Assembly (NCBI GenBank): GCA_937925815.1
Contig: CALAMQ010000068.1
Span: 1-39,611, forward strand
Source of the DNA: an uncultured Granulosicoccaceae bacterium
GTDB taxonomy: Bacteria; Pseudomonadota; Gammaproteobacteria; CALCKW01
DNA length: 39,611 nt
Direction: 5' to 3'
How positions within the stretch are numbered: position 1 is the first letter of the stretch; every line of letters starts with the position of its first letter. The position numbers and the translations under genes are program-made. Positions 19,634 through 39,274 of this stretch are shown here, one piece after another. Under the pieces are notes generated by a model. The model searched no databases. It saw only the letters and a list, made by a program, of their open reading frames with translations, and was not told where the DNA came from.

Positions 19634-20947
19634 TTAGCAATCGAGCGTGTTAGCGCGTTCCCACTCACTTAAGTGCGCACAGTAATCGGCCCAATCTTGC
19701 ATTTTGAGTTTGACAAAGGCGTCTATCAACTCGTCACCCAATCCAGCTCGAAGATTCTTGTTTTTGTCTAAAGCGCGAAGCGCATCGAGCAGATTGAGCG
19801 GCAGACGTTTTGCGCCCCGCGCCTTTTGCGGGTCGGCGTACATGTTGTTGAAAAGTGGCTCCCCTGGATCGCGCTTTTGTTCAAGACCATCGAGCCCTGC
19901 GGCCAAGAACCCAGCTTGCATGAGGTAGGGGTTGGCGGCTCCGTCCATCAGGCGCAGTTCAAATCTGCCATCATCTGGCACCCTGATCATGTGCGTTCTG
20001 TTGTTGCCGGAGTAAGTGACAGTATTGGGTGCCCAAGTGGCGCCAGAACGCGTGACGGAGCCATTGATGCGTTTATAGCTGTTGACGGTGGGGTTGAACA
20101 ACGCGCACAGCGCCTCCGCGTTATGCACAATGCCACCGAGGAAGGCATAGGCCGTGGAGGACAACCCAAGTCCACGTTTGTCTTTTTTACTGAGAAAGAG
20201 GTTTTTCTTTCCAGTCTTATCCCAAAGTGACACATGAGCATGGCAGCCGTTGCCTGTGAGCTCTGCAAAAGGTTTGGGCATAAACGTCGCCCGCACTTGG
20301 TGGTTCTCCGCGAGCGTTTTGGTCATAAATTTGAAGAACACGTGGCGGTCGGCGGTTTTGAGAGCGTCGTCATAGTCCCAATTCATTTCGAACTGGCCAT
20401 TGGCGTCCTCGTGATCGTTTTGGTAGGGACCCCAACCCAAATCAATCATGGCGTCACAAATGCTGCGAATCACCGGATAACGCCGCATCAATGCCTGTTG
20501 GTCGTAACAGGGTTTACTCTGGGTATCGCGTGGATCAGAGAGGACTGAACCGTCCTCTGACACCAAGAAGAATTCACATTCGACACCGGTTTTCATGCGC
20601 AGCCCGCGCTTCTGCGCACGCGCCAATTGCGTTTTCAGGGCCACGCGCGGCGAAGCGGCGACGGGCTCACCGTCCATGTACAAGTCCGCAGCCAACCAAC
20701 CGATCTCAGGCTGCCAGGGCAATTGAATTAAACTCTCCGGGTCCGGCACACCAAACATGTCAGGGTGCGCCGGTGTCATATCGAGCCAAGCGGCAAAGCC
20801 TGCAAAGCCCGCCCCCTCTTTCTGCATTCCGGCGATCGCGCGAGCCGGCACCAATTTCGCGCGCAAGTTGCCAAATAGATCGACAAAGCTGATTAGAAAA
20901 TACTGGATACCGCGGCTCTTGGCCTCTTTGCTCAAATCCACTGCCAT
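19634..20947 (-). CDS. gmaS: Gamma-glutamylmethylamide synthetase (glutamine synthetase-like)
   Basis: Joins monomethylamine to glutamate with ATP, giving gamma-glutamylmethylamide, the first step of the indirect methylamine pathway. The 437 residues belong to the type III glutamine synthetase-like group (GlnT/GmaS). Active-site stretches are visible: VECEFFLVSEDG, NDHEDANGQFEMNW, GNGCHAHVSLWDK, RINGSVTRSGATWAPN and FELRLMDGAANPYL. The start is ATG 20947 with GGAGAAGAAC upstream. It follows mgsC by 41 bases at the end of the mgsA-mgsB-mgsC-gmaS unit, divergent from tmm. That context favours GmaS over an ordinary glutamine synthetase or a gamma-glutamylpolyamine synthetase, though the nearby Pot importer keeps the last possible. 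Confidence 0.87.
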   Translation of the reverse strand: MAVDLSKEAKSRGIQYFLISFVDLFGNLRAKLVPARAIAGMQKEGAGFAGFAAWLDMTPAHPDMFGVPDPESLIQLPWQPEIGWLAADLYMDGEPVAASPRVALKTQLARAQKRGLRMKTGVECEFFLVSEDGSVLSDPRDTQSKPCYDQQALMRRYPVIRSICDAMIDLGWGPYQNDHEDANGQFEMNWDYDDALKTADRHVFFKFMTKTLAENHQVRATFMPKPFAELTGNGCHAHVSLWDKTGKKNLFLSKKDKRGLGLSSTAYAFLGGIVHNAEALCALFNPTVNSYKRINGSVTRSGATWAPNTVTYSGNNRTHMIRVPDDGRFELRLMDGAANPYLMQAGFLAAGLDGLEQKRDPGEPLFNNMYADPQKARGAKRLPLNLLDALRALDKNKNLRAGLGDELIDAFVKLKMQDWADYCAHLSEWERANTLDC

Positions 20948-20988
20948 GTTCTTCTCCGTCTTTGCCGATACAGTTAAAACGCTTCTGC

Positions 20989-22305
20989 CTACATTTGCTT
21001 ACCCGGCACCCACTCGGTGCCCGCCAACGGCACTCCTGCCATAGCAGCGGCTTCGATAGTCAAGGCTGCCAAGTCTTGTGGTTCGAGGTTGTGCACATGT
21101 GACTTGCCACAGGCACGGGCAATCGTCTGGGCTTCAAGGTTTAAGACATTGAGGTAATTGGCCAAACGCTTACCGGCTTCCACTGGATCGAGCCTCGAGG
21201 CGAGCTCTGGATCTTGTGTGCATATCCCAGCGGGATCACGGCCATCTTGGTAATCGTCGTAAAACCCTGCACTGGTGCCGAGCTTATTGTATTCAGCTTC
21301 GTGGACAGCGTTGTTGTCACCCAGGGCAATCAAAGCGGCTGTGCCGATCGAAACCGCATCGGCTCCCATCGCTAGCGCTTTTGCAACGTCTGCCCCGCTG
21401 CGAATCCCGCCGGAGACGATCAACTGCACCTTGCGGTGCATGCCAAGTTCGGTCAGCGCCTCCACAGCCTGGCGTACCGCCGGCAAGGTTGGGATGCCGA
21501 CGTGCTCGATGAACACATCTTGCGTGGCTGCTGTTCCACCTTGCATCCCGTCAACCACAACAACATCCGCCCCAGCTTTTACGGCCAGAGTGACGTCGTA
21601 GTAGGTGCGCGCCGCACCGACCTTGACATAAATTGGTATTTGCCAATCAGTGATTTCACGCAGCTCCTGAATTTTGATCTCAAGATCGTCCGGACCGGTC
21701 CAGTCTGGGTGCCTGCACGCACTGCGCTGATCAATGCCGGCCGGTAAATCGCGCATGTCGGCAACGCGGTCAGAGATCTTTTGTCCCAACAACATTCCGC
21801 CACCACCTGGCTTGGCACCCTGTCCAACTACCATTTCTATTGCGTCAGCCCTGCGCAGGTCGTCGGGATTCATGCCATAGCGAGATGGCAAGTATTGGTA
21901 AACCAAATGCGTGGAATGGCGGCGCTCTTCAGGTGTCATGCCGCCGTCACCGGTGGTCGTACTGGTGCCCATTTGCGATGCGCCACGTCCGAGCGCCTCT
22001 TTGGCTTGTGCGGACAGTGCACCGAAGCTCATGCCGGCAATGGTGATCGGAATGTCGAGTGTGATGGGTTTCTCAGCAAAGCGATCACCGAGTGTCACTC
22101 GGGTATCACAGCGCTCTCGGTACCCCTCTAGCGGATAGCGCGACATGCTAGCGCCGAGGAAGACCAAATCGTCAAAACTCGGCACGTGTCGTTTGGCGCC
22201 GAAGCCGCGAATGTCGTAAATGCCCGTGCGCGCGGCCCGCTCAATTTCGGCGATAACCGGTCGGCTGAAGGTGGCTGATTCTCGCAACCAGTTGTGGTCC
22301 ACCAT
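20989..22305 (-). CDS. mgsC: N-methylglutamate synthase subunit C, FMN-binding glutamate synthase domain
   Basis: FMN-dependent synthase subunit, homologous to the central/FMN part of GltB. With MgsA and MgsB it is expected to turn gamma-glutamylmethylamide into N-methylglutamate. Conserved family stretches include GMSFGALSAQAKEALGRGA, GQGAKPGGGGMLLGQKI, VVDGMQGGTAATQD and VSGGIRSGADVAKALAMGAD. The 3Fe-4S cysteine region of GltB is replaced: residues 347-366 read GFYDDYQDGRDPAGICTQDP, with Tyr349, Tyr352 and Asp357 where the cluster cysteines would be. The ATG at 22305 has GAGGAG upstream, 11 bases after the mgsB stop. GlxD of rhizobia is a close alternative name. Confidence 0.87.
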   Translation of the reverse strand: MVDHNWLRESATFSRPVIAEIERAARTGIYDIRGFGAKRHVPSFDDLVFLGASMSRYPLEGYRERCDTRVTLGDRFAEKPITLDIPITIAGMSFGALSAQAKEALGRGASQMGTSTTTGDGGMTPEERRHSTHLVYQYLPSRYGMNPDDLRRADAIEMVVGQGAKPGGGGMLLGQKISDRVADMRDLPAGIDQRSACRHPDWTGPDDLEIKIQELREITDWQIPIYVKVGAARTYYDVTLAVKAGADVVVVDGMQGGTAATQDVFIEHVGIPTLPAVRQAVEALTELGMHRKVQLIVSGGIRSGADVAKALAMGADAVSIGTAALIALGDNNAVHEAEYNKLGTSAGFYDDYQDGRDPAGICTQDPELASRLDPVEAGKRLANYLNVLNLEAQTIARACGKSHVHNLEPQDLAALTIEAAAMAGVPLAGTEWVPGKQM

Positions 22306-22316
22306 GGCGCTGCTCC

Positions 22317-22988
22317 TCAGTAGGCTGCTGTGTTATCAATGTTGAAGTGGTACAGCTCACGAGCAGAGCCAAATCGCCGGAAGGCCGAGCTGTCACAGTC
22401 TGTGACGCCAGCGGCCAAGAGCAAGCTATCGAGCTGGACGCAATGTGCAGTTTCCATAGGCTTCTCAACACAGTCCGCCCCTAGACTGGCGACATCGCCC
22501 CGAACAAAGAGTCGCGCTTCATACAGCGAGTCACCCAACGCCTCTCCGGCGTCCCCACACACAACCAGACAACCCTTTTGCGCCATAAACGCGCTCATGT
22601 GACCGACGTTGCCGCGAACGACAATATCGACACCTTTCATTGATATCCCACACCGGGAAGACGCATTGCCATCGACAACCACCAGCCCGCCATGCCCGCT
22701 GGCCGCACAGTACTGAGACGCGTCCCCGTGAACGTGAACACGCCCAGACATGATGTTTTCAGCAAGCCCAGGACCGGCGTTGCCGTGCACTGCGATAGAA
22801 GCATGCTGATTCATACCGCCGCAGTAGTAACCTACATTGCCGTCAATCGACACATCGTGTGCGGCAACAGCCCCAACCGCAATGGCGTGTCGACCTGCGG
22901 GATTGACAACCGAAACGGATTTGGCTGAGGCTTCGTGGAGACACGCGTTGAGTGGCCGCACCCCGTCGCATAAGTCAAACGTTGTCAC
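22317..22988 (-). CDS. mgsB: N-methylglutamate synthase subunit B (GXGXG beta-helix protein)
   Basis: Homologous to the C-terminal GXGXG beta-helix domain of GltB, a structural part of the synthase. The start is taken as GTG at 22986-22988 (VTTFDLCDGVRPL), overlapping the mgsA stop as GTGA, and gives 223 residues. The frame is open further up, but inside mgsA. The glycine-repeat helix is seen in SIDGNVGYYCGGMNQHASI, NIMSGRVHVHGDAS, IVVRGNVGHMSAFM and LVVCGDAGEALGDSLYEA. It lies between mgsA and mgsC in the operon. Confidence 0.85.
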   Translation of the reverse strand: MTTFDLCDGVRPLNACLHEASAKSVSVVNPAGRHAIAVGAVAAHDVSIDGNVGYYCGGMNQHASIAVHGNAGPGLAENIMSGRVHVHGDASQYCAASGHGGLVVVDGNASSRCGISMKGVDIVVRGNVGHMSAFMAQKGCLVVCGDAGEALGDSLYEARLFVRGDVASLGADCVEKPMETAHCVQLDSLLLAAGVTDCDSSAFRRFGSARELYHFNIDNTAAY

Positions 22989-23878
22989 GCTGCCATGTCC
23001 TCCCGCTCCCAGGTGTATATTCGGGCCGGTTCTGGTTCCCAAACGTCTGCGTGTTCAGCACCGGGCAACTGTGCAATAGCCCGGTACTCAGACGCCATCG
23101 CAACCCACTGATCGGTTTCAGCGAGAACGGCTGGCTTGCAAGCGATTGGATCGCGAAGCACAGCAAAACCGCTGCGAGTACCAATGGCAAAGGTGTAAAA
23201 GCCGTCGAGGTCTTGCAGCGCAGATTCCAACGCGCTGCGCAGGGAGTCCCCGTTTCGCATTCTGTGAGACAGGTATCCTGCAGCAACTTCAGAATCGTTG
23301 TCCGTTTTAAATTGCAGCCCCGCTCGAATAAGCGACTGTCGCAATCGATTGTGATTGGACAAAGAGCCGTTGTGCACCAGACAGACGTCATGGCCGGTTG
23401 AAAATGGGTGTGATCCCAAGGTCGTGACAGCGCTTTCAGTGGCCATGCGCGTGTGGCCGAGCGCATGACTGCCTGTGATCTCGTTCAGCGCGTGTTTATC
23501 GACAAAGTCACGCGGGTGAGACGCTTCTTTGTAGATTTCAACACGCTGCCCAACGCTCATGATATCCGCGTCTGGATACTGGGCTTTTATCCACGCCTGT
23601 ACTGTGTCGTTACATTGACCCTGCAACAGGACATGATTGCCAAGCACCGAGACTTCACAAGCAAATTGGGCAGTGACGGCAGATGCAAATTGCTCTCGCC
23701 GTTGAGGCTCGGCAAGCCTGACACTGAGTTTCAAACCCTCTGGGCCGTCGCGGTACACCGCGACGCCAGCACTGTCTGGCCCCCGCTCCCCCATCTGCAC
23801 CAGCATCTTTGACAGCAGAGAGCCTAATTGTGACCCGATACAGTCATGCTTGGCGTACAAGCCAACGATCCCGCACAT
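22985..23878 (-). CDS. mgsA: N-methylglutamate synthase subunit A (class II glutamine amidotransferase)
   Basis: Amidotransferase subunit of the synthase, homologous to the N-terminal Ntn domain of GltB. In this setting it probably takes the methylamino group from gamma-glutamylmethylamide. Translation is set at ATG 23878 so that the catalytic Cys2 is exposed (MCGIVGLYAKHD), giving 297 residues; an upstream extension in frame would bury it. The class II motifs GERGPDSAGVAVY, GHTRMATESAVT, LVHNGSLSNHN and TDNDSEVAAGYL are all present. It is the first gene of mgsABC-gmaS and faces tmm across a 344-base divergent region. Confidence 0.87.
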   Translation of the reverse strand: MCGIVGLYAKHDCIGSQLGSLLSKMLVQMGERGPDSAGVAVYRDGPEGLKLSVRLAEPQRREQFASAVTAQFACEVSVLGNHVLLQGQCNDTVQAWIKAQYPDADIMSVGQRVEIYKEASHPRDFVDKHALNEITGSHALGHTRMATESAVTTLGSHPFSTGHDVCLVHNGSLSNHNRLRQSLIRAGLQFKTDNDSEVAAGYLSHRMRNGDSLRSALESALQDLDGFYTFAIGTRSGFAVLRDPIACKPAVLAETDQWVAMASEYRAIAQLPGAEHADVWEPEPARIYTWEREDMAA

Positions 23879-24222: not shown

Positions 24223-25563
24223 ATGGGAAAACGGGTAGCAGTAATTGGCGCAGGCCCATCAGGCCTCGCGCAGCTCAGGGCGTTTCAGTCAGCCGCGCAA
24301 AAAGGCGCAGACATTCCAGAGGTTGTTTGCTTCGAAAAGCAAGATGATTGGGGTGGTTTGTGGAACTACACCTGGCGCACGGGCCTCGATGAATACGGCG
24401 AGCCCGTGCACGGTTCAATGTACCGCTACCTGTGGTCCAATGGCCCAAAAGAAGGACTGGAGTTCGCGGATTATTCCTTCGAAGAACACTTCGGAAAGCA
24501 AATTGCAAGCTACCCCCCTCGAGCCGTTCTCTTCGATTACATCAAGGGACGCGTCGAAAAAGCCGACGTCAGAGGGTGGATTCGGTTTCGCAACCCAGTG
24601 CGCCATGTGAGTTACGACGACGGTACAAAACAATTCACAGTCAGCGCGCATGACCTTGTCGAAGACAGAGAATACAGCGAAGTGTTCGACCATGTCGTGG
24701 TCGCAAACGGGCACTTCTCTACCCCCAATGTCCCGGAATTTGATGGCCTAGACCGGTTCAACGGCCGCGTACTGCATGCGCACGATTTTCGCGATGCTGT
24801 TGAATTCAAAGACAAAGATATTCTCATCATCGGCACGAGTTACTCGGCCGAGGACATTGGTTCGCAATGTTGGAAGTACGGTTGCAAGTCCATCACGGTA
24901 AGCCACCGCACAGCGCCGATGGGCTATGACTGGCCAGACAACTGGCAAGAGGTGCCGCTGCTGACCTCTGTTGATGGCAATACCTGTGTGTTCAAGGACG
25001 GCACGACAAAAGAGGTGGACGCCATCATCTTGTGCACAGGCTACAAGCATCACTTTCCATTCATGCCACCCGCCCTAACCCTGCGTACTGCCAACCGCTT
25101 GGCAGCCGCTGACCTCTACAAAGGTGTGGTATTCAACCCCAACCCTGCACTGTTCTACCTCGGGATGCAGGATCAGTGGTACACCTTTAACATGTTCGAT
25201 GCACAAGCATGGTATGTGCGCGACATCATCATGGGCACGATCTCTGTGCCAGACAGCGCTGCCCGCGAGCAAGACGTCGTAGACCGGGTTGCAGCAGAAG
25301 ACGCGCTTGAAGACGACTACGCTTGCATTAGATACCAAGGTGACTACGTCAAAGAATTGATCGCAGACACCGACTACCCAAGCTTTGATGTCGACGGTGC
25401 AAACGAAGCCTTTTTCCAGTGGAAGAAGCACAAAAAGGTAAACATCATGACGTTTCGCGACAATTGCTACACGTCAGTGATCACAGGCACCCTTGCACCG
25501 GTCCACCACACACCGTGGAAAGACGCACTCGATGACTCTATGGAGAGCTACCTCGAGAACTGA
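24223..25563 (+). CDS. tmm: Trimethylamine monooxygenase Tmm (bacterial flavin monooxygenase)
   Basis: FAD- and NADPH-dependent oxidation of trimethylamine to trimethylamine N-oxide in the cytoplasm. The 446 residues carry the FAD motif GAGPSG at 9-14, the FMO signature [11 protein letters not shown] at 179-189 and the NADPH motif [10 protein letters not shown] at 204-213. Tyr207 is where the bacterial Tmm enzymes have their functionally important tyrosine. Stretches such as [33 protein letters not shown] and [19 protein letters not shown] match known Tmm proteins closely. ATG 24223 is preferred because GGAGA lies eight bases upstream; ATGs at 24208 and a start at 24187 are possible. It is monocistronic, ending at a strong terminator. 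Confidence 0.95.
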
Positions 25564-25588: not shown

Positions 25589-25619
25589 AAAGGGGCCTGA
25601 CAATGTGTCAGGCCCCTTT
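25589..25619. terminator. Strong bidirectional rho-independent terminator
   Basis: A perfect 14-base-pair stem (AAAGGGGCCTGACA at 25589-25602, TGTCAGGCCCCTTT at 25606-25619) with a three-base loop. T residues follow on the plus strand (to 25621) and an A-rich stretch precedes it, giving Ts on the minus strand. It ends tmm and the convergent amt/small-protein transcript. Confidence 0.93.
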
Positions 25620-25632
25620 TTCGTGGTTGGAT

Positions 25633-25797
25633 TTACTTACGGTATGAACTGGACTCGTGCGCTGCACCCAGCACAAGTGCCAGAACGCATAAGCCAAGCG
25701 CTATCCACACCCACACCGACACCATGCCGGATCCGGCGCCAACGAAATAAGCGCCTTCAAAACCGTTCCATGTGCCACTTTCTACAGGTGAACCCAT
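25633..25797 (-). CDS. Small single-pass membrane protein (54 residues) downstream of amt
   Basis: No named family recognised. The ATG at 25797 has GGGAGA about five bases upstream, and the frame runs to TAA at 25633 just before the shared terminator. The product has a polar N-terminus with aromatic and Gly residues (NGFEGAYFVGAGSG), one hydrophobic helix of about 20 residues (SVWVWIALGLCVLALVLGAA) and a short charged tail (HESSSYRK). It is the next gene after amt on the same strand, with only 26 bases between, so it is almost surely co-transcribed with it. An accessory or regulatory partner of the transporter is an inference from position. Confidence 0.75.
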   Translation of the reverse strand: MGSPVESGTWNGFEGAYFVGAGSGMVSVWVWIALGLCVLALVLGAAHESSSYRK

Positions 25798-25823
25798 TTT
25801 TTTCTCCCAGTTTTGTCAGTGAG

Positions 25824-27194
25824 TTACGCGTTGTTAGATGAGCTGATGCCTTCAGGGTAGGCAACTGCAGGGACCTTGGTGATGTCCAGACCGTCAATCT
25901 CTGCGTGCTCAGGCACCCGCAACAGACCAAACACTTTCAGCACCAGTGACACCAAGTACCCAGGCACAAATCCACAAGCGAACATCACCACCAATCCGAC
26001 AAGCTGACCTGTCAACGACGTGACCGCAACGCCGGCATCGCCAAAAAGCGCAGGATAACCGGTTGCAAACAAGCCAACTGCAATCACGCCCCAAGCGCCA
26101 AGTGTACCGTGCACGGTGACGGCGCCGACTGCATCGTCAATGCCGAGCTTCTCAAAGAAGCGCGCGGATGCGGGCATCATGCAGGCACCAGCAAAACCGA
26201 TTGCGAAGGCCATCGGCGGCCACCACAAGTCGAGACCAGCAGCACACGAGATAATGCCGCCAAGCGCACCTGACATCATCCAGAAAGGGTCTCGTGTGAC
26301 AACCCAGGCACCGATAATCCCGCCAGCAAAGCCCATGAGGATGTTAAAGGTCAGTGCCGATAAGGTCACAGGTGTGCCGTAAATCGTGCCAAATTGTGCG
26401 CTACTCCAAGACCACGCTTCGCCTGGGAATATTGCGCAAGCCATTAGGAAGCCCCAGAAGCCCGCGATAATCAGCATCAAGCCGATTAGCGTCAACGGCA
26501 TGCTGTGCCCTGCGATGTGATTGGATGTGCCATTTGTGAACTTGCCAATTCGTGGCCCGAGGTTGATCAAGACCCCCAGTGCGAAGAAGCCCGCGACCAT
26601 GTGCACAACGCCTGCAGCACCAAAATCGTGGTAGCCAAATTCCGTGACCAACCAGCCGTCTGCATGCCATCCCCACGCTGCGGCAAATACCCACGCGAAG
26701 GTGCCAAGAATGATCGCAAGAATAATAAATCCGATCACTTTGATACGCTCTATGACCGCCCCCGACATGATTGAAGCCGTTGTGGCTGCAAAGAGCGTGA
26801 AGGCGCCCCAGAACACACCTGTTGCGCTGTCAGCAAAATTTGGCCCCATGCCTTCAGACCACGGCAGGAAGTACGCGGCGTACTCTGCCCCGCTGATCTC
26901 TAGTGGCCCAGTGCTCATGCTGAGGCCTGTGGGAAATGCCCAATACACCCAAAAGCCAATGAGGTAAAAAGCGGGCACGAGGAAAGCAAATGCGAGAATA
27001 TTTTTGATACTCGAGGCGAGCACGTTCTTGGTTCTCGATGCCCCCATCTCATAGGCTAAAAAGCCCACGTGTATCAGAATCATCAGCGGAATGGTTAAGT
27101 AGTAGTAGGTCTCAGCCAACGCTGTGTTCGTCCCGCTTGCGCCCGCTTGTAACGCCGCGACATCGGCGGCAAGTTTTGCAATTTCCTCTTCCAT
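25824..27194 (-). CDS. amt: Amt-family ammonium/methylammonium transporter
   Basis: An 11-helix-type Amt channel/transporter of 456 residues in the inner membrane. Family features are visible: FAATTASIMSGAVIERIK, the first pore histidine in GAAGVVHMVAGF, and the second in DDAVGAVTVHGTLGAWG. There is no signal peptide; instead a short helical, acidic N-terminal extension (MEEEIAKLAADVAALQAG) precedes the first membrane segment. ATG 27194 has AGGA upstream. Its place between a methylamine-pathway operon and tdm suggests it recovers ammonium or methylammonium. No glnK or other PII gene is adjacent, which is unlike the usual glnK-amtB pair. Confidence 0.9.
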   Translation of the reverse strand: MEEEIAKLAADVAALQAGASGTNTALAETYYYLTIPLMILIHVGFLAYEMGASRTKNVLASSIKNILAFAFLVPAFYLIGFWVYWAFPTGLSMSTGPLEISGAEYAAYFLPWSEGMGPNFADSATGVFWGAFTLFAATTASIMSGAVIERIKVIGFIILAIILGTFAWVFAAAWGWHADGWLVTEFGYHDFGAAGVVHMVAGFFALGVLINLGPRIGKFTNGTSNHIAGHSMPLTLIGLMLIIAGFWGFLMACAIFPGEAWSWSSAQFGTIYGTPVTLSALTFNILMGFAGGIIGAWVVTRDPFWMMSGALGGIISCAAGLDLWWPPMAFAIGFAGACMMPASARFFEKLGIDDAVGAVTVHGTLGAWGVIAVGLFATGYPALFGDAGVAVTSLTGQLVGLVVMFACGFVPGYLVSLVLKVFGLLRVPEHAEIDGLDITKVPAVAYPEGISSSNNA

Positions 27195-28497: not shown

Positions 28498-30876
28498 TCA
28501 ACTGCTGTAGTCTCCTTTGACACGCCGTTTTTGTGGATCGAAATGCGACAAGCCCACAACCTTTGCAAGTAAGCGCTTTTGCAACCCGTCAAGCTGACCC
28601 ACTTCCAATTCGGTGTCAACGTCAGCGTGCGCAATGTCCACCCGCGCCATGGCGATGGTCTTGCCTAGGATGGGCGACTTAACCGCCGATGTGATCTCGC
28701 CAACCTGAGCGCGGCCTAAGCGAACGCAATCGCCGCTGCTCGGCACGACACCACTTTCAATATCAAGCCCGACCAACTTACGTTGTGGGTTGGCCTTGCG
28801 GCGCTCCAGCGCTTCGCGGCCGATGAAGTCGTCCTCTTTGGATTTAAGTGGCACAGTGAAGCCAATACCTGCTTCAAAGGGGTCGGTCTGGTCACTGAAT
28901 TCGTAGTTGGCGAAGATGAGACCGGCCTCAGTGCGCAGCATGTCGAGTGCGCCCAAACCGCAGGGCAACAAACCGTGCGGCTCGCCGGCCGCTTTCACCG
29001 CATCAAATACTGCTGCGGCATCGCGAGGGTGGCAAAACACTTCATAGCCAAGTTCGCCGGTGTAGCCGGTTCGGCTGAGCACCACGGGCAGTCCATGCAG
29101 ATCCCCGACGCGCGCGATGGTGAACCGAAACCACGCCAGTTCTTCTACTGTCGGCTGGGCCGGCGGCGTCCAGAACACGTCTTTGAGGATCTCGCGTGAC
29201 AACGGGCCTTGCACCGCAATATTGGCCAGTTGGTCAGTCGAATTGCGCACCCATGCTTGCATATTGTGAGTGGCCGCCTGCTCGCGCAGCCACTCCCCTG
29301 AACTGTCACAGCCACCCACCCAACGGAAATTGGTGTCGCCGAGCCGGTAAACAGTGCCGTCGTCGATCATGCCGCCGTGCTCATAGCACATGGCGGTATA
29401 GACCACTTGCCCAACGCTGAGCTTTTTCATGTTGCGTGTAACGCAGAGTTGCATCAGCGCCTCGGCGTCGGGTCCTGTTACTTCGTATTTTCGAAGCGGT
29501 GACAGATCCATGACAACAGCCTTCTCGCGGCAGGCCCAATACTCGGCGATGGCGCCCGAATTCGACATCTGATTGGCTAACCAGAAGCCGTTGTACTCGC
29601 TGAAATCACGTGTGTATTGCGCAAAGCTCGAGTGAAAACCGGTTTCTCGTGTTTCTTCCATATCTGCCTCCGCGCTCTTCCTGAACCCGATAGAGCGTTT
29701 GAAGTCTTCGTTCGCGCCGTAAACACGCACCTGTATGTCTGTGGGATTCCAGCCGTTGGCCGGGTCGATGTCACACGGGCACGCCGTAGAGATACACAGG
29801 ATGTCGGTGACCGCTCGCAGCAAGACGTAATCACCCGGCCGCGACCAGGGATCGTCCATACCAAGTGCGTTGGTGTCATCGAGCAAGGTGTTGAAAAAGA
29901 AATTGATCGCAGGCCAACCGCCGCGGGGTTTGATTTGCCATGCCCCGAGCTCTCGGTTCATGTTGTCAGTGCAGTTGATGTGGCCGGGGTAACCGAGGTC
30001 ATCGTAGTAGCGCGACGTGCAGGCGAGCCCAAAGGTATCGTGGCGCCCACACGTGTCTGCCACCAACTCGACCAACTGCGTTTGATCACAGGTCCAGTAC
30101 TTCGAGAAAAGCCCTGGTGCCGGGTAGCCGAGCCCACTGAAGGACCGTGTGGCTGTGGGGTCGATTTCGCGTTCAGTACCGCGCTCGAGTTCGCGCAAAT
30201 CAAAGGCTTGGAAATCTGAGCACTCGCGACCCTGCACATCGAGAATCTGAAAGTACTGCCCGGCACGCACTTCGTAGGCGTGGGCTTGCCCAGGCTGAAT
30301 ATTGGCGTCGTGCAGTGGATCGGCCAATGGATCGGGCGCAGAGAGCGGCGCGCCCTCTTCTCCACCCTTGTAATGCCGCGCGCGCTGACGCGTGATGTAC
30401 GCGACAATTTCAGTCGGCGTATCTTGCGCATGCGGCGCCATGGCGGCGCCGTCAGAGCAGACAATCAACAAGCCGGCGCACTGCGCACTGAAGGTGACAG
30501 ATTCACCGGCGCGCGAACCATCCGCAAACACCCGAGTTGCGTCGGCGTTGGCGAGGTCGAAGCCGGCGTGACTCAAAGCCCGGCGCACCCGCCCACCGCT
30601 CGCATCACCAGCGGCCAAAGCGCGCTGTATTCCACGTGGTAGCCCGGAGCTCACGCCTCCAATCATGGCGATATCTGAGCGACCATCAGGCGTGAAAAAC
30701 GCAAGCTCTGCCGGTTGCAATCCCTCGGGATCGACAATGCAGATGTCGTCGCCAGCTTCGATCTCAAGCGCCCGTGTGCCACCGGCCGGCACCGGGTAGC
30801 GCTCAACTCCAGGTGGCAATACTGGCAGGCCAGGCACCCGGACACCGGCTTGCTCGAACGGCTTTTCAAGTCTCAT
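28498..30876 (-). CDS. tdm: Trimethylamine N-oxide demethylase Tdm (DUF1989 + GcvT fusion)
   Basis: Cleaves TMAO to dimethylamine and formaldehyde in the cytoplasm; the second domain resembles folate-binding aminomethyltransferases and is thought to trap formaldehyde on tetrahydrofolate. The 792 residues have a DUF1989 domain at about 195-395 and a GCV_T plus C-terminal barrel region at about 410-785. Candidate zinc ligands are Cys366 and Cys368 (STACPCDID) with Cys302 (INCTDN) or Cys286. GcvT features include QGPLSREIL, VLSRTGYTGELGYEVF and GLGALDMLRTEAGL. ATG 30876 has GAGGAGG upstream, the SD overlapping the preceding stop. It ends the tmo-tdm series, nine bases after the permease. Confidence 0.93.
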   Translation of the reverse strand: MRLEKPFEQAGVRVPGLPVLPPGVERYPVPAGGTRALEIEAGDDICIVDPEGLQPAELAFFTPDGRSDIAMIGGVSSGLPRGIQRALAAGDASGGRVRRALSHAGFDLANADATRVFADGSRAGESVTFSAQCAGLLIVCSDGAAMAPHAQDTPTEIVAYITRQRARHYKGGEEGAPLSAPDPLADPLHDANIQPGQAHAYEVRAGQYFQILDVQGRECSDFQAFDLRELERGTEREIDPTATRSFSGLGYPAPGLFSKYWTCDQTQLVELVADTCGRHDTFGLACTSRYYDDLGYPGHINCTDNMNRELGAWQIKPRGGWPAINFFFNTLLDDTNALGMDDPWSRPGDYVLLRAVTDILCISTACPCDIDPANGWNPTDIQVRVYGANEDFKRSIGFRKSAEADMEETRETGFHSSFAQYTRDFSEYNGFWLANQMSNSGAIAEYWACREKAVVMDLSPLRKYEVTGPDAEALMQLCVTRNMKKLSVGQVVYTAMCYEHGGMIDDGTVYRLGDTNFRWVGGCDSSGEWLREQAATHNMQAWVRNSTDQLANIAVQGPLSREILKDVFWTPPAQPTVEELAWFRFTIARVGDLHGLPVVLSRTGYTGELGYEVFCHPRDAAAVFDAVKAAGEPHGLLPCGLGALDMLRTEAGLIFANYEFSDQTDPFEAGIGFTVPLKSKEDDFIGREALERRKANPQRKLVGLDIESGVVPSSGDCVRLGRAQVGEITSAVKSPILGKTIAMARVDIAHADVDTELEVGQLDGLQKRLLAKVVGLSHFDPQKRRVKGDYSS

Positions 30877-37043: not shown

Positions 37044-38390
37044 TTAAAGGTGGTGGTAGTCTTCAACACCGACTGTGTGATTGGTACCGGCGAGCGGCAC
37101 CCCAGCGATGGCAGAAGCCTCCATAGTCAGGGCCGCGAGATCTTCGGGCTCAAGCGAATGAATATTGGTTTTACCGCAGGCCCGTGCAAAGAGCTGCGCC
37201 TCGATGGTCAGCGTGTGCAGGAAGTTGTATACCCGCTCGGCCGCTTCATCTGGGTTCAGACGCTTGCGCAATGTTGGGTCTTGAGTTGCAACCCCAACCG
37301 GGCAGCGACCGGAGTGACAGTGATAGCAGTATCCCGGTTCAACACCCATTTCTTCCTGGTAGTTAGCTTCGGGGATGTCCTTGTTACAGTTCAGCGCCAT
37401 CATTGCCGAGTGGCCAATGGCGATGGCATCAGCGCCCAGTGCAATGGCCTTGGCAACATCAGCGCCGTTGCGGATACCGCCTGCGTACACCAGAGAAATC
37501 TCGCCTCGCTTGCCGATGTCATCAATTGCCTTGCGCGCTTGACGGATTGCCGCCATTCCCGGCACACCGGTATCTTCTGTTGCCAGGTGCGGCCCCGCGC
37601 CCGTGCCACCTTCCATGCCGTCGATGTAGATCGAATCCGGGTCACACTTTGCGGCCATGCGAACGTCGTCGTACACACGGGCTGCGCCGAGCTTGAGCTG
37701 GATTGGGATCTGCCAGTCGGTGGCTTCGCGAATCTCCTGAATCTTGAGAGCGAGGTCATCGGGACCAAGCCAATCAGGGTGGCGCGCCGGCGAGCGTTGG
37801 TCGATACCGGCCGGCAAAGAGCGCATCTCTGCGACCTGATCGGTGACCTTCTGACCCATCAAGTGACCGCCAAGACCCACTTTACAACCCTGGCCAATGA
37901 AGAACTCGCACCCGTCTGCCAACACGAGGTGGTTGGGGTTGAAGCCATAACGTGACTGGATGCATTGATAAAACCACTTGGTGGAATACCGCCGCTCATC
38001 CGGGATCATGCCGCCCTCACCCGAGCAGGTAGCGGTGCCAGCCATACTTGCACCGCGCGCAAGCGCAGTCTTGGCTTCAAAACTCAGTGCACCAAAGCTC
38101 ATGCCTGTGATGTAAATGGGGATATCGAGCTCAATAGGCCGTTTGGCGCGAGGCCCAATCACGGTCTTGGTTAGGCACTTCTCGCGGTAGCCCTCGATCA
38201 CGAAACGCGTGAGCGTGCCGGGCAAAAATGTCAGGTCATCCCAGTGCGGGATTTTCTTGAACAGGGAGAAACCGCGCATGCGGTAGCGCCCAAGTTCTGA
38301 TTTGATGTGGATATCGTCAATGACGCGTGGCGGAAAGACAAAACTCTCGCCAAGACGGTTGACGTCGCGGTCCAGGGGTTTTTTGGCCAT
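37044..38390 (-). CDS. Second FMN-binding glutamate synthase-like subunit, with iron-sulfur cysteines
   Basis: Homologue of MgsC/GltB central domain, 448 residues. FMN-domain stretches such as GMSFGALSFEAKTALARGA, GQGCKVGLGGHLMGQKV, IDGMEGGTGAGPHL and AGGIRNGADVAKAIALGAD are intact. Unlike the mgsC at 20989-22305, it keeps a cysteine cluster, Cys355, Cys358 and Cys363 (CYHCHSGRCPVGVATQD), as in the 3Fe-4S site of GltB. The ATG at 38390 follows the mgsB-like stop after 14 bases. It belongs to a second complete A-B-C set and may act on glutamine/2-oxoglutarate, on a methylated amide, or be the electron-receiving form of the synthase; sequence alone does not decide. Confidence 0.86.
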   Translation of the reverse strand: MAKKPLDRDVNRLGESFVFPPRVIDDIHIKSELGRYRMRGFSLFKKIPHWDDLTFLPGTLTRFVIEGYREKCLTKTVIGPRAKRPIELDIPIYITGMSFGALSFEAKTALARGASMAGTATCSGEGGMIPDERRYSTKWFYQCIQSRYGFNPNHLVLADGCEFFIGQGCKVGLGGHLMGQKVTDQVAEMRSLPAGIDQRSPARHPDWLGPDDLALKIQEIREATDWQIPIQLKLGAARVYDDVRMAAKCDPDSIYIDGMEGGTGAGPHLATEDTGVPGMAAIRQARKAIDDIGKRGEISLVYAGGIRNGADVAKAIALGADAIAIGHSAMMALNCNKDIPEANYQEEMGVEPGYCYHCHSGRCPVGVATQDPTLRKRLNPDEAAERVYNFLHTLTIEAQLFARACGKTNIHSLEPEDLAALTMEASAIAGVPLAGTNHTVGVEDYHHL

Positions 38391-38404
38391 GTCAGGACGT
38401 CTCC

Positions 38405-39274
38405 TCAGAGAATGAGTTTCTTTTCGCTCGGTTCAAGGTTGTCGTAGTTCCACAACTGACGACCGGCGACGATTTTCTTGAAATGCGCTACGCCTTGATC
38501 AGGCATGAGCTCGTATTGCGACAACTTGCGCGTGAGCCACGCTTTGTCGAGATCAGTCAATTCCTCTTCTACTGCATCCACGCCCAGGCTTTGAATCTTA
38601 CCGCCGACAAAGATGGTTCCGTCGTACATGGAATCACCAAGGTTCTTACCGGCGTTGCCGCAGAACACCATTCGACCGCGCTGCATCATGAAACCGGTCA
38701 ACGCACCGGTGTCACCCCCAACGATGATGGTGCCACCTTTTTGATCGATGCCCGTGCGAGATCCGACTGAGCCGCGGCACACCAAGTCACCACCGCGAAT
38801 GGCCGCACCGAAGGTTGAGCCCGCATTCTTCTCAATCAAAATGGTGCCGGACATCATGTTTTCGCCACATGACCAGCCCACACGGCCAGAAATACGCACA
38901 TTGGGTCCGTCGATTAAGCCGGCGGCAAAGTAGCCAAGTGAGCCGTCAAACTCGAGGTTCAACTTGCTCAATATGCCAACCCCTAGACTGTGCATGCCGC
39001 GGGGATTGAGCACCTTGACCGTGCCTACACCGTCTTCCATCAGCGCGCGTATCTTGAGATTCACGTCGGTCGCGGTGAGACCGTCGGCGTCAATCTCAGC
39101 TGACTTGGCTGTGTCCACCACCGGTGCCCACGGATACAGAAAGTTTTCATCTTCTGTAGGCTCAAAAAACTCTTTCATTGAGCGGCCGGTGAGCTGCTCT
39201 GACATCATGCCGAGTGCTTCGGCTCGGTCTTCCTGGCTCATCGCCCGCAATTCGGCGTCGCTCATGCTTGCCAT
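38405..39274 (-). CDS. Second GXGXG (glutamate synthase beta-helix) subunit
   Basis: Homologue of MgsB and of the GltB C-terminal domain, 289 residues, longer than the first copy (223) by an N-terminal part (MASMSDAELRAMSQEDRAEA and on). The glycine helix runs from about residue 90: VKVLNPRGMHSLGVGILS, ISGRVGWSCGENMMSGTIL, VGSRTGIDQKGGTIIVGGDT and CGNAGKNLGDSMYDGTIF. ATG 39274 has AGGAGG seven bases upstream and overlaps the end of the A-like gene by 13 bases; a second ATG at 39265 would form an ATGA overlap but is too far from the SD. Confidence 0.86.
   Translation of the reverse strand: MASMSDAELRAMSQEDRAEALGMMSEQLTGRSMKEFFEPTEDENFLYPWAPVVDTAKSAEIDADGLTATDVNLKIRALMEDGVGTVKVLNPRGMHSLGVGILSKLNLEFDGSLGYFAAGLIDGPNVRISGRVGWSCGENMMSGTILIEKNAGSTFGAAIRGGDLVCRGSVGSRTGIDQKGGTIIVGGDTGALTGFMMQRGRMVFCGNAGKNLGDSMYDGTIFVGGKIQSLGVDAVEEELTDLDKAWLTRKLSQYELMPDQGVAHFKKIVAGRQLWNYDNLEPSEKKLIL

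Follow-up and report, generated by a model that had tools for sequence, protein, structure and literature searches.

A predicted single-helix membrane protein co-encoded with a divergent clade of Amt transporters

We analysed a stretch of 39,611 nucleotides from an uncultured Granulosicoccaceae bacterium (contig CALAMQ010000068.1), hereafter the window, in which an ammonium transporter-like gene (amt) is followed 26 nt past its stop codon by the ATG of a small open reading frame (ORF), both on the minus strand (Table 1). Stop codons interrupt reading of the same interval on the plus strand. An earlier note, made from the letters of the window alone, had proposed that this interval packs a ribosome-binding site, a start, a hydrophobic helix and a charged tail directly behind amt on its own strand and ends at a strong terminator, and all of these features are borne out on the minus strand. 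The stem-loop starts 13 nt past the stop codon of the small gene, is common to the convergent gene tmm and is flanked by T-runs on both sides, of which the minus-strand run was computed with the stem and the plus-strand run was read from the sequence. The names gmaS and mgs are given to neighbouring genes by inference from their domains and from matching gene order beside other amt genes of the same clade, and by inference this set would represent the route from methylamine to N-methylglutamate. The DUF1989 and GcvT protein is probably a TMAO demethylase (Tdm), a recurrent neighbour of amt genes in this clade. A second glutamate-synthase-like and GXGXG-like set lies at 37044-39274 on the minus strand, arranged like mgsC-mgsB at 20989-23042.

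Table 1 Features of the window around the small gene
Feature	Position	Strand	Details
gmaS-like, mgsC, mgsB and mgsA-like genes	19634..23878	-	Glu_synthase, GXGXG and GATase domains
tmm, trimethylamine monooxygenase, convergent neighbour	24223..25563	+	NF058570, 831 bits (cutoff 675)
Bidirectional intrinsic-terminator-like stem between small gene and tmm	25589..25619	.	14 pairs, 8 G-C
Small membrane protein gene	25633..25797	-	ATG at 25797; 54 codons, 54 aa; product MGSPVESGTWNGFEGAYFVGAGSGMVSVWVWIALGLCVLALVLGAAHESSSYRK
Predicted transmembrane helix, about residues 28-46	25660..25716	-	Hydrophobicity, KD mean 2.6
Ribosome binding site GGGAG	25804..25808	-	6 nt 5′ of small-gene ATG; read from sequence
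amt, divergent-clade Amt/MEP-family transporter	25824..27194	-	456 aa; PF00909, E 1.9e-57
DUF1989 and GcvT protein gene	28498..30876	-	PF09347 and PF01571

Judged by its pattern of substitution, the small ORF is protein-coding and held by purifying selection. Comparison with its nearest relative, from the same genus (G001), gives pS 0.61, pN 0.14 and a dN/dS of about 0.13; pN is below pS for 2768 of 2775 pairs of homologues, and variability at codon positions 1, 2 and 3 is 0.42, 0.31 and 0.57. ORFs as short as this one are common in GC-rich DNA, and it might have been a chance ORF or a leader or untranslated element within the 3′ UTR of amt. Conservation at the protein level across classes speaks against such an origin, as do ribosome sites, with a GGAG- or AGGA-like site 5′ of the start in most homologues. 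We regard the ORF as coding because of the homologue set and the excess of pS over pN, and we rule out chance, which retains virtually no plausibility given the homologues 3′ of amt and the substitution pattern. Orthologues, WP_023852390.1 among them, are already annotated in RefSeq, labelled ‘hypothetical protein’, and the gene is therefore unnamed rather than unseen.

The small protein has an acidic N-terminal segment containing W10, a single hydrophobic helix and, following that helix, H47-E48 and a basic end with R-K. The family signature is M-G-[SA]-P..TW-x-G..[YF]-x-G..W-[TM]-G-x-x-HE-x-x-[SA]-Y. Across 41 homologues, lysine and arginine average 0.02 before the helix versus 3.9 after it, and the positive-inside rule predicts an N-out/C-in orientation, most clearly for the type to which the window's protein belongs (type A, below). 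An AlphaFold2 model of one homologue contains a long helix. In size and in its single transmembrane helix, assessed by hydrophobicity, the positive-inside rule and AlphaFold2, the protein fits what is expected of a single-helix accessory subunit. Neither the window's protein, the 41 members nor the other subtypes match any Pfam or NCBIfam family over cutoff, the best sub-cutoff match of the small protein being DUF7942 at 15.4 bits (cutoff 26.7); membership of a known family was ruled out on this basis.

The transporter belongs to the Amt/MEP/Rh family (PF00909, 195 bits; cutoff 23.2), and a Foldseek search with the model of a clade member recovers the Amt fold with a probability of 1.00 to solved Amts. 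It fails both the classical ammonium transporter model TIGR00836 (200.6 bits; cutoff 343.3) and the marine subtype model TIGR03644 (170.5 bits; cutoff 514). Because NCBIfam amt models score it so far below cutoff, the plain annotation ‘ammonium transporter’ is doubtful for this gene. In E. coli AmtB numbering, D160, H168, H318, F107 and F215 are kept in 57 of 57 aligned clade Amts and S219C, W212F, Q104F and F31Y are fixed in the same 57, which also carry A162G/Y and N216L/Y; the alignment is locally ambiguous around W148. The substituted sites line the outer vestibule and pore of AmtB, and the changes would fit altered substrate handling, which they do not demonstrate. In place of the C-terminal HGENAY of E. 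coli AmtB, clade A and B Amts carry forms such as KVPAxAYPE.

We fetched 80 amt relatives with the Amt protein alone as query, and the sample is therefore not biased towards the small ORF. A homologue of the small ORF lies just 3′ of amt in all 80 of these close-relative loci, across gaps of 10-114 nt (mostly 20-30; starts assigned). When 398 genomes were drawn evenly across the phylum, their Amts split into 14 with 42-100% identity to that of the window and others with no more than 39%. A single-helix ORF is found directly 3′ of 14 of 14 clade Amts in this draw and behind none of the 16 classical Amts examined; the one apparent exception in the clade (L135, genome G102) has a small ORF that lies below the hydrophobicity threshold used and was recognized by reading the DNA. 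Likewise, a set of 293 Rhodobacterales genomes contains 57 clade Amts, of which 56 are directly followed by the partner: an HMM places 53 of these partners on the contig and strand of their Amt, with 37-99 nt separating the aligned ends, and reading of the DNA adds three more (G413, G280 and G524). The 57th (G618) lies at a contig break, where the amt match stops early and the small gene opens another contig. Profile searches covering up to 398 genomes each revealed no copy of the small protein away from an Amt, and no natural fusion of the two proteins was noticed. Linkage to a single transporter family, as expected of an accessory subunit, is thus met in 80/80, 14/14 and 56/57 cases. The earlier note had suggested looking for homologues beside other amt genes and would have considered its proposal refuted by their absence together with a non-coding pattern of substitution; the result is strongly the opposite.

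Small proteins of the family fall into three types that match Amt subclades A, B and C, each of which forms one clade in the tree. Type A, that of the window, reads GSPF...TW.G...HE..AY, type B reads MNTSPI.SWEGAEAYFTFAD...HE and type C reads MSTIGY.SWAVDLAEVGAVYPFQG.E...HRIQ. The joint Amt clade is monophyletic and separated from classical AmtB/Amt by a very long branch of 2.7 with support of 100, in a quick tree and not a careful maximum-likelihood one. Types A and B are homologous (hhalign 97.6%), and a profile built from type B only picks up the small ORF of the window with an E value of 4.5e-4. Similarity of type C to A and B is weak (hhalign 11-25%), and for this type only common position and architecture are therefore established, not homology. 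One genome (G448; locus L171, G448:C2:2222100-2226300) carries tandem clade amt genes of types C and A, each followed by the matching partner subtype. Pairwise distances correlate at r 0.91-0.92 between Amt and small protein, 0.80 between Amt and DmmC/DmmD and 0.55 between Amt and Tdm. A comparison with Tmm reveals no difference (0.85 for Amt and small protein against 0.86 for Amt and Tmm), and co-inheritance alone could account for part of the correlation.

Genes for methylated-amine metabolism (tmm, tdm, dmmDABC, gmaS and mgs) occur in the fetched flanks of 67 of the 80 type A loci, an upper figure since paralogues account for some of the Tdm matches, at 25-31% identity. They are also near 12 of 15 type B and C loci, and near none of 15 classical amt loci. 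The gene glnK, whose position beside amt marks a GlnK-regulated Amt, adjoins 13 of 15 classical Amts versus 0 of 95 clade loci, and clade Amts do not meet that criterion. The genome of the window itself reproduces the difference, with glnK behind each of two classical amt genes and the small protein instead behind the amt studied here, and the absence of a PII gene to which the earlier note had drawn attention is thus upheld. Two loci depart from the methylated-amine setting: in G161 (L175:3856-10786) a clade B amt and its partner lie directly behind eutR-eutBC, of which eutBC encodes ethanolamine ammonia-lyase, with a LysE-type translocator on their other side, and in G448 the pair sits behind an aminotransferase. 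The pair therefore accompanies amine catabolism generally and methylated amines most often. The G161 arrangement suggests a role in amine or ammonia metabolism beyond methylamines.

Single-helix partners of transporters are a known kind of protein, represented by AcrZ and MgtS (review PMC10710835). AcrZ, KdpF and MgtS resemble the window's protein in size, in having one helix and in serving one transporter; AcrZ differs in modulating an RND pump, and no sequence relation to any of the three was shown. The nearest functional precedent is the 61-aa sP36 of Methanosarcina mazei, which is likewise small and tied to an ammonium transporter, being reported to act on AmtB1. However, sP36 is mainly archaeal, has no transmembrane helix, works with GlnK1 and, as a soluble hexamer, relocates to the membrane (PMC10714827), whereas the protein described here has a strong helix, comes from loci without glnK and does not qualify as a member of the sP36 family. 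In the AmtB-GlnK system, too, amt has an adjoining gene, there for a protein that acts on the transporter. The two systems differ in that GlnK, a soluble trimer, plugs the pore, whereas the small protein is integral to the membrane, has one helix and is unrelated to GlnK; the Amt of the window, moreover, belongs to another clade and has no neighbouring glnK.

Comparison across genomes demonstrates that the small protein is conserved and under selection, that it is co-encoded behind the clade Amt essentially without exception, that Amt subgroups carry matching small-protein subgroups and that the pair replaces the amt-glnK arrangement. We consider it probable, with considerable room for error, that the product of the small ORF is an accessory subunit with a single helix, dedicated to a distinct clade of Amts, with binding and function inferred. 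The earlier idea of a small membrane partner thus gains comparative support; any binding, tuning or assembly of the transporter by this protein is inferred. As a working model, the N-terminus with its conserved tryptophan and aromatic residues would lie outside, one helix would pack against the Amt trimer within the membrane, and the HE...YK tail, which is conserved, would face the cytoplasm at the site that GlnK uses for docking on classical Amts, so that the small protein might stabilize or gate the channel in place of PII control. The resulting two-part permease would most likely carry methylammonium or related alkylammonium (and/or ammonium) in methylated-amine degraders. The proposed link to methylammonium finds support in gene context, and the pore-region substitutions are compatible with it; the substrate is read from context only. 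Physical binding, stoichiometry, gating, substrate and direction of transport are all inferred. A bolder proposal, which we put forward tentatively and would not be surprised to see fail, is that this separate Amt branch constitutes an obligate two-component alkylammonium permease whose channel functions only together with the co-encoded small helix, has lost its PII pairing, has co-diverging subtypes and includes an Amt-like protein of genome G408 without the twin histidines.

The small protein could instead be a regulator rather than a structural subunit, binding Amt only when needed and then inhibiting it or altering its selectivity, or recruiting another protein through its HE...YK tail and so replacing GlnK. 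Such a role is suggested by its occupation of the position that glnK holds behind a classical amt of the same genome, by the absence of glnK from clade loci, by a C-terminal motif in clade Amts unlike the HGENAY of E. coli AmtB and by the precedents of AcrZ (PMC10710835) and of sP36 on archaeal AmtB1 (PMC10714827). Invariable, closely spaced co-encoding in one apparent transcription unit better suits a constitutive partner, an argument weakened by the fact that GlnK too is co-encoded, and we judge regulation unlikely while keeping it in serious contention. A reversal of direction, in which the pair vents ammonium freed in amine breakdown and imports no methylammonium, seems to us rather improbable. 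Uptake is what AmtB-type channels are chiefly known for, and the changes S219C, W212F and A162G/Y, which affect the outer site and the pore, hint that substrates are recognized differently, although neither point excludes efflux. Ammonium is indeed released by the amine clusters and ammonia by EutBC, the ethanolamine ammonia-lyase encoded beside the G161 pair, and Rhodobacteraceae growing on methylamines or glycine betaine are reported to supply diatoms with ammonium (PMC7574528).

An interaction between the two proteins has not been demonstrated, leaving room for a small membrane protein that is merely co-transcribed and serves another step of amine metabolism without touching Amt. We modelled Amt and the small protein as a single chain with AlphaFold2 by read-through concatenation at 38 loci, reading the amt stop as glycine (a device only; no read-through is claimed), and the small part reached pLDDT 65-95, no higher in confidence than the 69-97 obtained when it was folded alone. 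Covariation between the two proteins gave no coherent interface at an effective depth of only about 31 sequences. However, the small gene tracks Amt rather than amine genes, the two stay together where their neighbours change and the profile searches, in up to 398 genomes each, found no small gene without an Amt, leaving such independence little credibility.

Amt proteins are textbook homotrimers under cytosolic PII regulation. Having a co-encoded partner specific to one clade would alter the reading of many ‘ammonium transporter’ annotations in marine methylated-amine degraders; it provides a testable candidate for the methylamine uptake step, and the fixed pore substitutions offer direct sites for mutagenesis. 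An amt recurs in Roseobacter methylated-amine (TMA/DMA/MMA) clusters and, in the passages found (PMC7574528, PMC4744692, PMC5520151), is treated as an ordinary ammonium transporter with no mention of the small gene; it very probably belongs to the same clade. The literature on one-helix partners yielded none for the Amt/MEP/Rh family, and a search of mainly open-access literature found no small membrane partner of a bacterial Amt, so that a single-helix partner for an Amt is new as far as this search reaches, without excluding a prior description.

Neither the phylum nor the Rhodobacterales draw yielded an orphan copy of the small protein. The sole candidate, a weak extra match in genome G408 (contig G408:C35), lies 3 nt behind a further Amt-like gene whose product is 29% identical to the window's Amt, and its position is a blind confirmation of the pairing. 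This Amt-like protein (L204:2800-4386; PF00909, 88.5 bits) has neither the twin pore histidines nor the Phe gate, and its gene stands behind two branched-chain-type ABC permease genes. The small protein behind it is type-C-like, giving a non-canonical Amt the same partner arrangement.
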